A stretch of DNA of 64,000 bases, taken from assembly GCF_001855565.1 (NCBI RefSeq), contig NZ_MKCR01000028.1, positions 1-64,000 of the forward strand, in the 5' to 3' direction. This DNA is from Chromobacterium amazonense (GTDB lineage: Bacteria; Pseudomonadota; Gammaproteobacteria; Burkholderiales; Chromobacteriaceae). Position numbers and translations under genes: made by a program. Positions within the stretch are counted from its first letter, which is position 1; every line of letters starts with the position of its first letter. Shown one piece after another: positions 40,224-62,295 of this stretch. The notes under the pieces were generated by a model that was given only the letters and a program-made list of their open reading frames with translations, did not search any database and was not told where the DNA came from.

Positions 40224-40344
40224 CGGCGTTGCCGGTAATGCCGTTCACTTAAGAGAAAAGCACCGTCTCTATGCATGGGAAACGGTGCTTTTTTTGTGGA
40301 TTCCTGTGCTCTCAAGGCCAGAAAAGTCGCCCGAAAATCCTTAA

Positions 40345-41506
40345 GGAAGGTCTGAACAACCTGCCACGCAAACAGAAATGCAATTTCTCGCGGGGCTTCG
40401 GTTGCATTTCACCCACCAATTCCAGATCGCCCGCCATGAGGATGACCGGGTGCTTCCGGTCATCCGGCCTTTTAACTCGCCGCCAGCAAGGCCTTTCGCG
40501 CCAGCCAGATGTTGGCCAGCCCAAACAGCGTCATCAGTTGCGCGGTGTTCTTCTTCAAACCGCGGTAGCGTGTTTTCAGGTAGCCAAACTGCTGCTTGAT
40601 GACCCGAAACGGATGCTCCACTTTGGCCCGAATCTTGGCTTTGACCATTTCGCCCAGCTGGATCTGCCGGTCGTCGGCTGAATCGGTCAGCGCTTTGCGC
40701 TGGCCGGGCCTCATCGCAATCCACCAACGCACCGCTCGCGATTGGTGTTCGGCTCGCTTGTGCACGCCAGCAAAGCCGGCGTCGCCAAACACATCGATTT
40801 CCTCGCCGTGCAACAACTGATCGACCATCGTGACATCCGCCACATTGGCGGGGGTGCCGGCCACGTGATGCACCAAGCCGGACTGGGCGTCGACGCCGAT
40901 ATGGGCCTTCATGCCGAAGTACCACTGATTGCCCTTCTTGGTTTGATGCATGTCCGGATCGCGCTCGCCCTGAGCGTTTTTGGTGGAGCTGGGCGCGTGG
41001 ATCAGGGTGGCATCGACGATGGTGCCTTGCTTCAACATCAGCCCTTTGTCGCAGAGATGCTGGTGGATGGCGGTAAACAGAGCGTGGGTCAGCTGGTGCT
41101 TTTCCAGCAGATGGCGGAAGTTCAGCAGGGTGGTTTCGTCCGGGACGGCGTCCAGGGAGAGGCCGGCGAACTGGCGCATGGAGGCGATCTCGTACAGGCT
41201 TTCTTCCATGGCGGGATCGGACAGGCTGTACCAGTGCTGCAGGCAGTAGACGCGCAGCATGGCGGACAACGGGTAGGGGCGGCGACCGTTGCCAGGCTTG
41301 GGATACACTGGATCGATGACGGCTTCGAGCTGCGCCCAAGGCATGACCTGATCCATCTCTGTCAGAAAGATTTCGCGGCGGGTGCGCTTCTTCTTAGCGG
41401 CGAGTTCGAGATCGGTGAAGGTCATCTGCTGTCGCATGCTGGCGTCCTGGATCTGACTGAGGGGGAGTCAGTTTACGGGAAGATTGGAGACTTGTTCAGA
41501 CCTTCC
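40345..41506 (-). mobile_element. IS5-family insertion sequence, 1162 bp, with TTAA target duplication
   Basis: Perfect 15-bp inverted repeats GGAAGGTCTGAACAA bound the element (40345 and the reverse at 41506). TTAA is duplicated at 40341-40344 and 41507-41510, matching the YTAR target of IS5-group elements. The one transposase gene is intact. It sits inside the right terminal repeat of the MITE. Subterminal hairpins (for example AAATGCAA...TTGCATTT near 40376) lie in the region downstream of the gene. Confidence 0.92.
40472..41437 (-). CDS. IS5-family transposase (DDE)
   Basis: A 321-residue IS5-group transposase. The N-terminal region holds RREIFLTEMDQVMPWAQLEA and YPKPGNGRRPYPLSAMLRVY, typical of the family. 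The catalytic residues appear in TIVDATLIHAPSS (Asp near 140), DVFGDAGFAGVHKR (second Asp), and KAKIRAKVEHPFRVIKQQFG (Glu, in the Y-(2)-R-(3)-E-(6)-K-type region). The gene has no frameshift and the element has intact ends and a clean duplication, so it is likely active or recently active. Confidence 0.93.
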   Translation of the reverse strand: MRQQMTFTDLELAAKKKRTRREIFLTEMDQVMPWAQLEAVIDPVYPKPGNGRRPYPLSAMLRVYCLQHWYSLSDPAMEESLYEIASMRQFAGLSLDAVPDETTLLNFRHLLEKHQLTHALFTAIHQHLCDKGLMLKQGTIVDATLIHAPSSTKNAQGERDPDMHQTKKGNQWYFGMKAHIGVDAQSGLVHHVAGTPANVADVTMVDQLLHGEEIDVFGDAGFAGVHKRAEHQSRAVRWWIAMRPGQRKALTDSADDRQIQLGEMVKAKIRAKVEHPFRVIKQQFGYLKTRYRGLKKNTAQLMTLFGLANIWLARKALLAAS

Positions 41507-41574
41507 TTAAGTGAGCGGCATTACGGCGTTGCCGGGCTTTTTCATTCGCGCACGCGCGATGCGATAAGCTGGAC

Positions 41575-60385: not shown

Positions 60386-61144
60386 ATGAAATACTGGCCA
60401 TACAGGGAACGGCGAGTTTGGATCGAGCTGGCCTGGATTGCCGCGTTCAATCTGGCGTGCTTTTTGCTGTTCGTTTATTTCGAACTCTTCGACAAGCTGG
60501 ATGATTGGTTCCACAGCCATCCCGACACCCCGCTGGATGAAGTGATGCTGGTCGGCTTCTCGCTGGCGGTGTCGATGACGGTCTTCGCCATCCGCCGCCT
60601 GCGGGAAGCGCGAGGCCTGCTCAAGGTGCTGCGGCGGCAGGCCGAGCGCGACGACATCACCAATCTGGCCAACCGCCGCCGCGCCAACCAGATGTTGCAG
60701 CGCGAAACCGAACGCAGCTTCCGCTCCAACCGTCCCTTCTCCGTCCTATTGATCGACATCGATCACTTCAAGTGCATCAATGACAGCCATGGCCACCAGA
60801 TTGGCGACGCCGTGCTGCATACCTTTGCCAAAGTCCTGCAGACGCGGGCCCGTCAACTCGACACGGTGGCGCGCTGGGGCGGGGAGGAGTTCATCGTCGT
60901 CTGCCCGGAAACCGGACAACTTGGCGCGCTGCAACTGGCGGCCGACATCGGCCGGCTGCTGCAGGAAACCGATTTCGCGCCGGTATCCGCCGTCACCGCC
61001 AGCATAGGCGTCGCCACGCTGCAGGAAGACGACACCCCGGACAGCCTGATCCATCGCGCCGACATGCGGCTGTATGCCGCCAAACAGGCCGGCCGCAATC
61101 GAGTCGTGGGAGAATTTGGAACTGATGAACCCTTGAGCGCATGA
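60386..61144 (+). CDS. Membrane-anchored GGDEF diguanylate cyclase
   Basis: A 252-residue protein with two N-terminal hydrophobic helices (LAWIAAFNLACFLLFVYFEL and VMLVGFSLAVSMTVFAIRR) with a short loop between, then a GGDEF domain from about 80. It shows DDITNLANRRRANQM, IDIDHFKCINDSHGHQIG and the active-site ARWGGEEFIVVCPE (GGEEF near 167). RADMRLYAAKQAGRNRV is the GGDEF C-terminal motif. It should synthesise cyclic di-GMP. The stop codon lies in the terminator that MITE copy 2 interrupts. Confidence 0.9.
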   Translation: MKYWPYRERRVWIELAWIAAFNLACFLLFVYFELFDKLDDWFHSHPDTPLDEVMLVGFSLAVSMTVFAIRRLREARGLLKVLRRQAERDDITNLANRRRANQMLQRETERSFRSNRPFSVLLIDIDHFKCINDSHGHQIGDAVLHTFAKVLQTRARQLDTVARWGGEEFIVVCPETGQLGALQLAADIGRLLQETDFAPVSAVTASIGVATLQEDDTPDSLIHRADMRLYAAKQAGRNRVVGEFGTDEPLSA

Positions 61145-61151
61145 AAAAAGC

Positions 61152-61297
61152 CGGCAATGCCGGTAATGCCGTTCACTTAAGAGAAAAGCACCGTCTCCAT
61201 GCATGGGAAACGGTGCTTTTTTTGTGGATTCCTGTGCTCTCAAGGCCAGAAAAGTCGCCCGAAAATCCTTAAGTGAACGGCATTACGGCAATACCGG
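61152..61297. mobile_element. MITE-like element copy 2 with flanking 12-bp duplications
   Basis: The element is 61164-61285 (122 bp). The terminal inverted repeats TAATGCCGTTCACTTAAG and CTTAAGTGAACGGCATTA are perfect over 18 bp. The flanks CGGCAATGCCGG (61152-61163) and CGGCAATACCGG (61286-61297) are direct repeats with one mismatch and differ from those of copy 1, so they look like a 12-bp target duplication. The outer arms, AAAAAAGCC on the left and GGCCTTTT on the right, reconstitute a terminator for the GGDEF gene. The interior matches copy 1 with about one difference. Confidence 0.75.
61184..61223 (+). terminator. Intrinsic terminator inside MITE copy 2
   Basis: AAAAGCACCGT and ACGGTGCTTTT pair as an 11-bp stem with a 15-base loop, followed by further T residues to 61223. 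The same hairpin is in copy 1 near 40256-40295. Confidence 0.85.
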
Positions 61298-61323
61298 CCT
61301 TTTCCATGGCAAGACGCCATCAA

Positions 61324-62295
61324 TCAGACAATGCCTATGCTTTGCTGCACGGCGCTGCGCTTGGCGCTCAGGTCCAATCCCGGCAGGTCGGCCATGATGT
61401 CCGGATGATCCGCCAGCTTCTCCACCACGAAATCGACGAATACGCGGGTGCGCGGCGCGATATGGTCGCGATGCGGGAAGCAGATGTAGATCGAGCGCTC
61501 CAGCGACACCATGTCGGTCAGCACCGGCTCCAGTTCGCCGCTGCGGATCATATGCACCACCTCGTGGCCCGGCAACTGCGCCACTCCCATGCCCAGCCTG
61601 GCCAGCTCGGCTACCGCCTCCATGTCGTTCAGGGTATAGGTGCCGTTCACCTCAACCGGGATGCGCTCGCCCTTGCGGTCGAACTCCCATTTGAACAAAC
61701 GGCCGGACGTCGGGAACTGGAAGTTGATGCAGTCATGATTGCCCAACTCCTCCGGAGTGGCCGGCCGGCCATAGCGATCCCAATAGGCCGGCGACGCCAC
61801 CACATACAGGGGCATCTGCGACAGGTTGCGCGCCACCATCCGGCTGTCCGGCATCATGCCGGTGCGCACGCCCACATCGTAGCCATCCTCGATCAGATCG
61901 CTGAAGTGGTCGTCGAGACCGAAGAAAACCCGAACCTTGGGGTAGCGCTCGCAAAACTCGCCCATGATGGGCAGAATGAAGCGTCGGCCAAAGGAGTTAG
62001 GCATGCTGACCCGCAGATGCCCCGCCGGCTCATCGCGGCTCGCCTTCAGTTGGTTGATGGCAGAATCCAGATTATTGACCGGACCACGACACTGCGCATA
62101 AAAGCGGCGGCCATCCTCGGTCAGCGTCAACTGGCGCGTGGTGCGGTTGAACAGGCGGACTTCCAGCTCCTGTTCCAGTCTGGCGATACTCTGGCTGATG
62201 GCAGCCGGCGACACGCCGAGCTTGCGGGCCGCATCCGAAAAACTGCCGTTTTCAGCAGTGGTCATGAAGACCATTAGAGCTTTTAAGGTATCCAT
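61324..62295 (-). CDS. LysR-family transcriptional regulator
   Basis: A 323-residue LTTR. The N-terminal winged helix-turn-helix holds MDTLKALMVFMTTAENGSFS, then DAARKLGVSPAAISQSIARL and FNRTTRQLTLTEDGRRFYAQ. The effector domain shows GHLRVSMPNSFGRRFILPIM near 90-110 and DGYDVGVRTGMMPDS. This subgroup (CrgA-like) often controls a divergent gene, but no gene lies directly upstream here; cviR is more than 670 bases away. The target and effector are unknown. It ends close to MITE copy 2. Confidence 0.92.
   Translation of the reverse strand: MDTLKALMVFMTTAENGSFSDAARKLGVSPAAISQSIARLEQELEVRLFNRTTRQLTLTEDGRRFYAQCRGPVNNLDSAINQLKASRDEPAGHLRVSMPNSFGRRFILPIMGEFCERYPKVRVFFGLDDHFSDLIEDGYDVGVRTGMMPDSRMVARNLSQMPLYVVASPAYWDRYGRPATPEELGNHDCINFQFPTSGRLFKWEFDRKGERIPVEVNGTYTLNDMEAVAELARLGMGVAQLPGHEVVHMIRSGELEPVLTDMVSLERSIYICFPHRDHIAPRTRVFVDFVVEKLADHPDIMADLPGLDLSAKRSAVQQSIGIV

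Follow-up and report, generated by a model that had tools for sequence, protein, structure and literature searches.

What determines where a short mobile element comes to rest in a bacterial genome? The question is raised by a unit of 122 bp that sits immediately after a GGDEF gene's stop codon, ahead of a convergent LysR-type gene, in the 64,000-nucleotide stretch of Chromobacterium amazonense DNA analysed here (the window). Table 1 presents this locus together with a second copy of the unit. A first-pass annotation had described the unit as a repeated element with 12-bp flanks, and this proved to be real: copies 1 and 2 differ at 2 of 122 bases, and the target repeats on the two sides of copy 2 match at 11 of 12 bases. 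Copy 1 is interrupted by an IS5-like insertion sequence (IS) with DDE_Tnp_1 and DUF772 domains, which is present in near-identical form, full or partial, at 33 places in the same genome, several of them as close pairs. A search of Rfam with window positions 60900-61500 gave no matches up to E 0.1. A simple terminator scan of positions 61100-61350 did not return the hairpin inside the unit, probably because this hairpin contains an internal mismatch; the scan gave one short hairpin on the minus strand, built from the left target repeat.

Table 1. Features of the two copies and their surroundings, in window coordinates.
Feature	Position	Strand	Remarks
MITE copy 2	61164..61285	+	122 bp; 18-bp inverted ends, perfect
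Copy 2, left target repeat	61152..61163	.	CGGCAATGCCGG
Copy 2, right target repeat	61286..61297	.	CGGCAATACCGG
Copy 2, left terminal inverted repeat	61164..61181	+	TAATGCCGTTCACTTAAG
Copy 2, right terminal inverted repeat	61268..61285	-	
Copy 2, internal terminator-like hairpin	61184..61223	.	T run included
Split host terminator, left half	61145..61163	+	A tract, 5' arm, loop
Split host terminator, right half	61286..61305	+	repeat, outer 3' arm, T tract
GGDEF gene	60386..61144	+	its terminator is the target of copy 2
LysR-type regulator gene	61324..62295	-	convergent with the GGDEF gene
MITE copy 1, left part	40236..40345	+	
MITE copy 1, right part	41512..41523	+	
Copy 1, left target repeat	40224..40235	.	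CGGCGTTGCCGG
Copy 1, right target repeat	41524..41535	.	CGGCGTTGCCGG
IS5-like IS	40346-41505		1.16 kb; interrupts MITE copy 1; CTTAAG at both sides
CTTAAG repeat	41506-41511		from the IS5-like insertion

The genome (4,010,194 bases in 35 contigs) holds 23 copies of the unit, 22 of them free and one forming the left end of a full-length IS. Twenty copies are exactly 122 bp long and differ from one another at 0-4 bases, with a median of 1; two further copies are 121 bp. The target repeat is 12 bp long in 19 of the 23 copies, 10 bp in three and 13 bp in one, and it is perfect in 19/23. Since the unit is short, has inverted ends and a target repeat, lacks a transposase gene, occurs in several copies and has its ends in common with the full-length IS, it meets the criteria for a MITE. 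The IS (1497 bp, contig C3, L031:1629-3125) lies in a terminator itself, with a 10-bp repeat at its flanks. Its single orf encodes a transposase of 434 amino acids in which the Nterm_IS4 and DDE_Tnp_1 domains are both above their cut-offs. The YREK motif, Y(2)R(3)E(6)K, is present as YQERWRIETSYRELK at 301 and includes E308, and D126 and D203, whose catalytic roles are predicted, fit the spacing D(60-110)D(100-150)E. According to the accessible part of the relevant survey, members of the IS4 subgroup have ends of the form -AATR--------WTW----, a size of 1400-1650 bp, a single orf and direct repeats of 10-13 bp (PMC2266710). The IS meets these criteria of ends (TAATGCCGTTCACTTAAG), size, orf and repeat, and it has the transposase domains and the YREK motif of the subgroup as well. 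With the domain, motif and spacing, and end, size and repeat criteria all met, it is a member of the IS4 family, IS4 subgroup. We infer that the MITE is non-autonomous and would be moved in trans by the DDE transposase of this subgroup. Partial matches to the transposase, at 86-97% amino-acid identity, were found in Crenobacter oryzisoli, Chromobacterium haemolyticum and the genus-mate G004, and a full-length match at 75% in Allofranklinella. A search across the class at E 1e-60 matched this genome alone, among 369, and the breadth of the behaviour described below was therefore assessed with records of plasmids and E. coli.

The first-pass annotation had judged the movement of the unit to be recent and had proposed a comparison with strains that lack the insertion. 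Such a strain is the close relative G009, in which the MITE was not found; its 94% identity across the GGDEF gene is the highest at that locus among 18 genus-mates. At the site of copy 2 this relative reads ATGAAAAAAGCCGGCAATGCCGGCCTTTTTCATGG, with the target present once. Mapping covered 20 of the 23 sites (L004, L010 and L014 were outside), and in 20/20 cases the alignment crosses the junction without an insert, the hairpin is present and the joined flanks match. In three alignments the junction is crossed by merely 4 (L005), 9 (L022) and 10 (L007) bases, and the orthology of these short matches rests on alignment alone. The empty sites, taken with the near identity of the copies, fit recent movement.

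Reconstruction of the targets as they were before insertion revealed a hairpin at all 23 sites. In each, the repeat covers the loop and the inner stem and is centred on the loop, with an offset from the dyad of -1.0 to +1.5 bp. A strict stem rule was passed by 22/23 of these targets, to be compared with 1.75% of 21,267 window positions. The lone miss, L022, has an imperfect stem and still folds at -20.6 kcal/mol. When a rule based on RNAfold was used, a hairpin was detected at 23/23 sites of the MITE and at 1/25 sites of the IS5-like IS from the same genome. This rule is lax, because 22.3% of 9115 window positions pass it; with a T-tract rule added the background is 2.7%, and the respective proportions become 18/23 and 0/25. 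For the control, 3 of the 33 IS5-like places were not retrieved and 5 of the 30 loci were dropped, their ends not having been found. In 0.87-1.00 of the MITE sites the bases mirrored about the dyad are complementary at distances of 3-11 bp, with the commonest base at 3-9 bp reaching only 0.39-0.74; at 10-12 bp, A is found in 0.78-0.96. Here, and in the comparisons of half-sites, A. caviae and other genera below, the dyad was allowed a displacement of up to 2.5 bp wherever that gave the best pairing, and complementarity is somewhat inflated as a result. What the 23 targets have in common is an inverted repeat accompanied by tracts of A and T, on stems that vary from site to site.

A fixed target form, CGGC-N3-RCCGG, had been read from the flanks of the two window copies. 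It is absent as a common form among the 23 targets and was a coincidence of those two copies.

None of the 23 copies falls within a predicted gene, and each lies no more than 50 bp from the 3' end of one; at 8/23 sites, convergent gene 3' ends are found within 60 bp on both sides. These placements depend on a codon-usage heuristic for gene prediction. At one-sided terminators the MITE is co-directional in 5 cases and opposite in 10, without a clear bias. The proposal that the element prefers terminator hairpins behind genes, made originally from two insertions, is thus borne out by the hairpins centred on the duplication and by the position of all copies relative to predicted genes. The further suggestion of a safe-harbour strategy is an interpretation placed on this pattern.

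The same rule was observed at many other insertions of the IS4 subgroup. MITEs of other genus members lie in a hairpin with a perfect repeat in 4/4 cases tested (L035, L036, L038, L039). Half-sites at contig ends form a hairpin in 28/29 cases in Crenobacter, 6/7 in C. haemolyticum and 2/2 in G004, with a control value of 1.6% of 5805 window positions; left and right ends were counted apart, so that the 29 Crenobacter half-sites represent 15 to 29 insertions. For two elements of Aeromonas caviae, at least 6 of 7 core pairs are formed at 18/19 sites. Among loci from other genera this core (at least 6/7 pairs) is reached at 10/15. These 15 were a selection out of 23 genome loci, the 60 plasmid records listed among 574, and further records; L117 and L120 were excluded as repeats of L129 and L122. 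In one of them, L124, the hairpin is imperfect and has a T tract, and the core is not reached by single copies from Rhizobium (L113), Paraburkholderia (L115), Caballeronia (L118) and Shewanella (L119). No clean target repeat was seen at L119 and L234. In 5/5 copies (L126, L128, L130, L132, L134), two of which have near-identical surroundings, an IS4-subgroup element of Photobacterium sp. GJ3 lies in REP-like palindromes of the type TTCCCGCG..GGAA that lack a T tract. This points to the palindrome rather than to termination as the common denominator, as judged from one Photobacterium element.

Three other structures were seen among genus members. In G004 (L039, 1501-1623) a MITE of 74% identity and the same plan has other ends, TAATGCTAGTCAGTTAAG, and lies, flanked by an 11-bp repeat, in a terminator. 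In G014 (L038, 1501-3003) a MITE in a terminator, with a perfect 12-bp repeat, is interrupted mid-way by other DNA of about 1.38 kb. In G007 (L037, 1501-2583) an element of 1083 bp with a MITE-like left end sits between hairpin arms with no obvious repeat; tblastn of the transposase at E 1e-3 gave no match to it.

Escherichia coli IS4 was inspected at 16 of 5360 places, a small sample of hand-chosen hits, which correspond to 10 distinct insertions, or to 9 if two same-direction adhE copies have one origin. A strong hairpin with a T or A tract is found at 8/10 of these, at nupC, fieF-ogrK, zapB, typA, gspK-glcA and, three times, the adhE terminator. The last is a reused target, since it carries IS4 in three strains (L193, L196, L238), in both orientations, with repeats of 12, 11 and 12 bp. 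At the K-12 site, which accounts for 6 of the 16 places, the fold is weak (-8.1 kcal/mol), and it is weak as well for a copy inside bcsG (-3.9 kcal/mol). Both exceptions retain symmetric A and T bases, and the tracts may therefore be read on their own.

Several explanations of this pattern must be considered. If insertion were random and survivors remained only in harmless intergenic DNA, copies would be missing from predicted genes, as they are; survival alone, however, leaves unexplained why the cut lies within 1.5 bp of a hairpin dyad at 23/23 sites, the pattern is not seen for the IS5-like IS that shares this genome, and E. coli IS4 entered the adhE terminator in both orientations. We consider an absence of targeting to be scarcely credible. 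A more serious possibility is that the transposase reads symmetric A/T tracts at about 10-12 bp to each side of the centre of the cut, with a hairpin present merely because such tracts occur mainly in intrinsic terminators. Besides the prevalence of A at this distance in the MITE targets, at least two A and at least two T of 4 bases are present at 23/23 of those targets and at 9/9 of the E. coli IS4 sites that were scored, among them the two that lack a hairpin. Yet in 123 kb of the C. amazonense genome, a background that contains 19 loci holding MITE copies, the core hairpin occurs at just 32 of the 7509 symmetric A/T positions (0.4%), or 6 of 273 (2.2%) under a stricter A/T rule, compared with 22/23 MITE sites, and the Photobacterium palindromes lack the tracts (0/5). 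Since so few A/T positions carry the core hairpin and nearly all MITE sites do, hairpin and tracts both matter, and we regard a reading of the tracts alone as unlikely. Finally, insertion may track transcription termination itself, with a paused polymerase or gene-end supercoiling attracting the transposase. The constant proximity to predicted gene 3' ends and the 8/23 sites between convergent ends would agree with this, but the orientation of the MITE at one-sided terminators is not clearly biased, one relative inserts into REP-like palindromes that lack a T tract, and pausing alone would not account for cuts centred on the loop. Coupling to termination thus seems to us very unlikely.

The reading that we prefer, and hold to be probable, is that the MITE is mobilised in trans by an IS4-subgroup transposase into intrinsic terminators, with one terminator swapped for another. 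Some observations count against it. A strong hairpin is missing at 2/10 E. coli IS4 insertions, at 1/19 A. caviae sites and at the single copies from Rhizobium, Paraburkholderia, Caballeronia and Shewanella; moreover, the T-tract rule is not passed by all of the MITE sites, and the hairpin rule that all of them do pass is the lax one. According to the preferred reading, the element would insert into a GC-rich hairpin preceded by an A tract and followed by a T tract, and the transposase would cut with a stagger of 10-13 bp, mostly 12, placed symmetrically about the loop. With such symmetry the loop and inner stem would be duplicated and the outer stem pulled apart, and in the host terminator the inserted element is indeed found to separate the two arms of the outer stem.

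The MITE, for its part, contains a hairpin with folding energies of -21.1 kcal/mol on the plus strand and -23.0 on the minus strand, followed by T7 or T4. In an alignment of six related units 96.4% of paired cells are maintained, with two-sided changes that keep the pairing at 2/14 pairs; the sequences are few, and both of these changes come from the 74%-identical G004 unit. On the basis of folding, the MITE carries a hairpin that is terminator-like in both directions. Because the element brings this hairpin with it, insertion probably results in the exchange of a terminator for a terminator, although the termination activity of an inserted copy is inferred. The host gene would lose one terminator and gain that of the MITE, making insertions cheap and allowing copies to accumulate.

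In five relatives, from Crenobacter, Allofranklinella, B. ambifaria, Paraburkholderia and Caballeronia (L083, L059, L114, L115, L118), a hairpin forms the left end of the IS: the end repeat is followed by an adjoining inverted copy and then a T run. These ends resemble a terminator placed before the transposase gene. They are absent from the gamma-proteobacterial elements compared alongside, E. coli IS4 included. In the C. amazonense IS the corresponding arms are 86 bp apart, and the left end is the MITE unit. The loop of a hairpin end may have grown to 86 bp, so that the end became a mobile unit of its own; or else the IS acquired the MITE by recombination at the ends, and the diverged G004 MITE fits this course too. 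A more comprehensive proposal, which we advance only tentatively and with some doubt, is that IS4-subgroup transposases, that of E. coli IS4 among them, read the terminator hairpin, probably as an extruded cruciform, and not the sequence, that the elements have terminator-like hairpins at or within their own ends and so exchange one terminator for another at each insertion, and that the MITE may derive from loop growth. Recognition of hairpin or cruciform shape beyond sequence is an inference.

How does this behaviour compare with known systems? Group IIC introns, found at terminators and at attC stem-loops, are mobile elements with terminator stem-loops as targets; they employ RNA-based retrohoming and are not known to involve a DDE transposase or a target repeat. 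Closer in target choice are IS1272/TnSha1 of the IS1182 family, which, as far as the available part of the report goes, use hairpins with little primary sequence in common, several of them confirmed transcription terminators (PMC4923244). The 23 MITE and IS sites share the hairpin target. IS1272/TnSha1 differ, in the same available part, in their IS1182-family transposase, where our IS has IS4-family domains, and in that they make no target duplication and delete part of the stem, whereas the present element has loop-centred repeats of 10-13 bp at 23/23 sites and no deletion at those mapped. ISRm22, an IS4-family element, targets REP sequences at the palindrome symmetry axis according to the portion accessible (PMC1525189), and is assigned to subgroup IS4Sa (PMC2266710, in part). 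It uses one repetitive palindrome; the stems of our 23 sites differ, so that they do not qualify as REP-type targets, and the Photobacterium element, with its fixed palindrome, is the closer one to ISRm22. Arm specificity is recorded for some members of the IS4 subgroup in the available part of PMC2266710, which describes no MITE with a built-in hairpin; the word terminator is absent from the main text. Prokaryotic MITEs as reviewed in PMC10969869 are likewise short and intergenic, with inverted ends, a target repeat and no gene of their own; the accessible part of the review calls a terminator function of MITEs conceivable and names none that targets terminators. Hairpin or terminator targeting is thus known for IS1272/TnSha1 and REP targeting for ISRm22, and no report of terminator targeting by the IS4 subgroup was recognised in the literature searched, much of it available in part. 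That literature included few subscription journals and neither ISfinder nor TnPedia, where such targeting may be known.

For a textbook group of insertion sequences, these results would amount to a general landing rule: insertion into the loop of an intrinsic terminator. On this rule, hot spots of insertion are expected at sites like the E. coli adhE terminator, and it would explain how a genome can harbour two dozen copies without a gene being hit. It would make the IS4-subgroup transposase a natural transposase that locates the ends of genes, and it raises the testable question of whether a DNA hairpin can be read by its shape by a DDE transposase.
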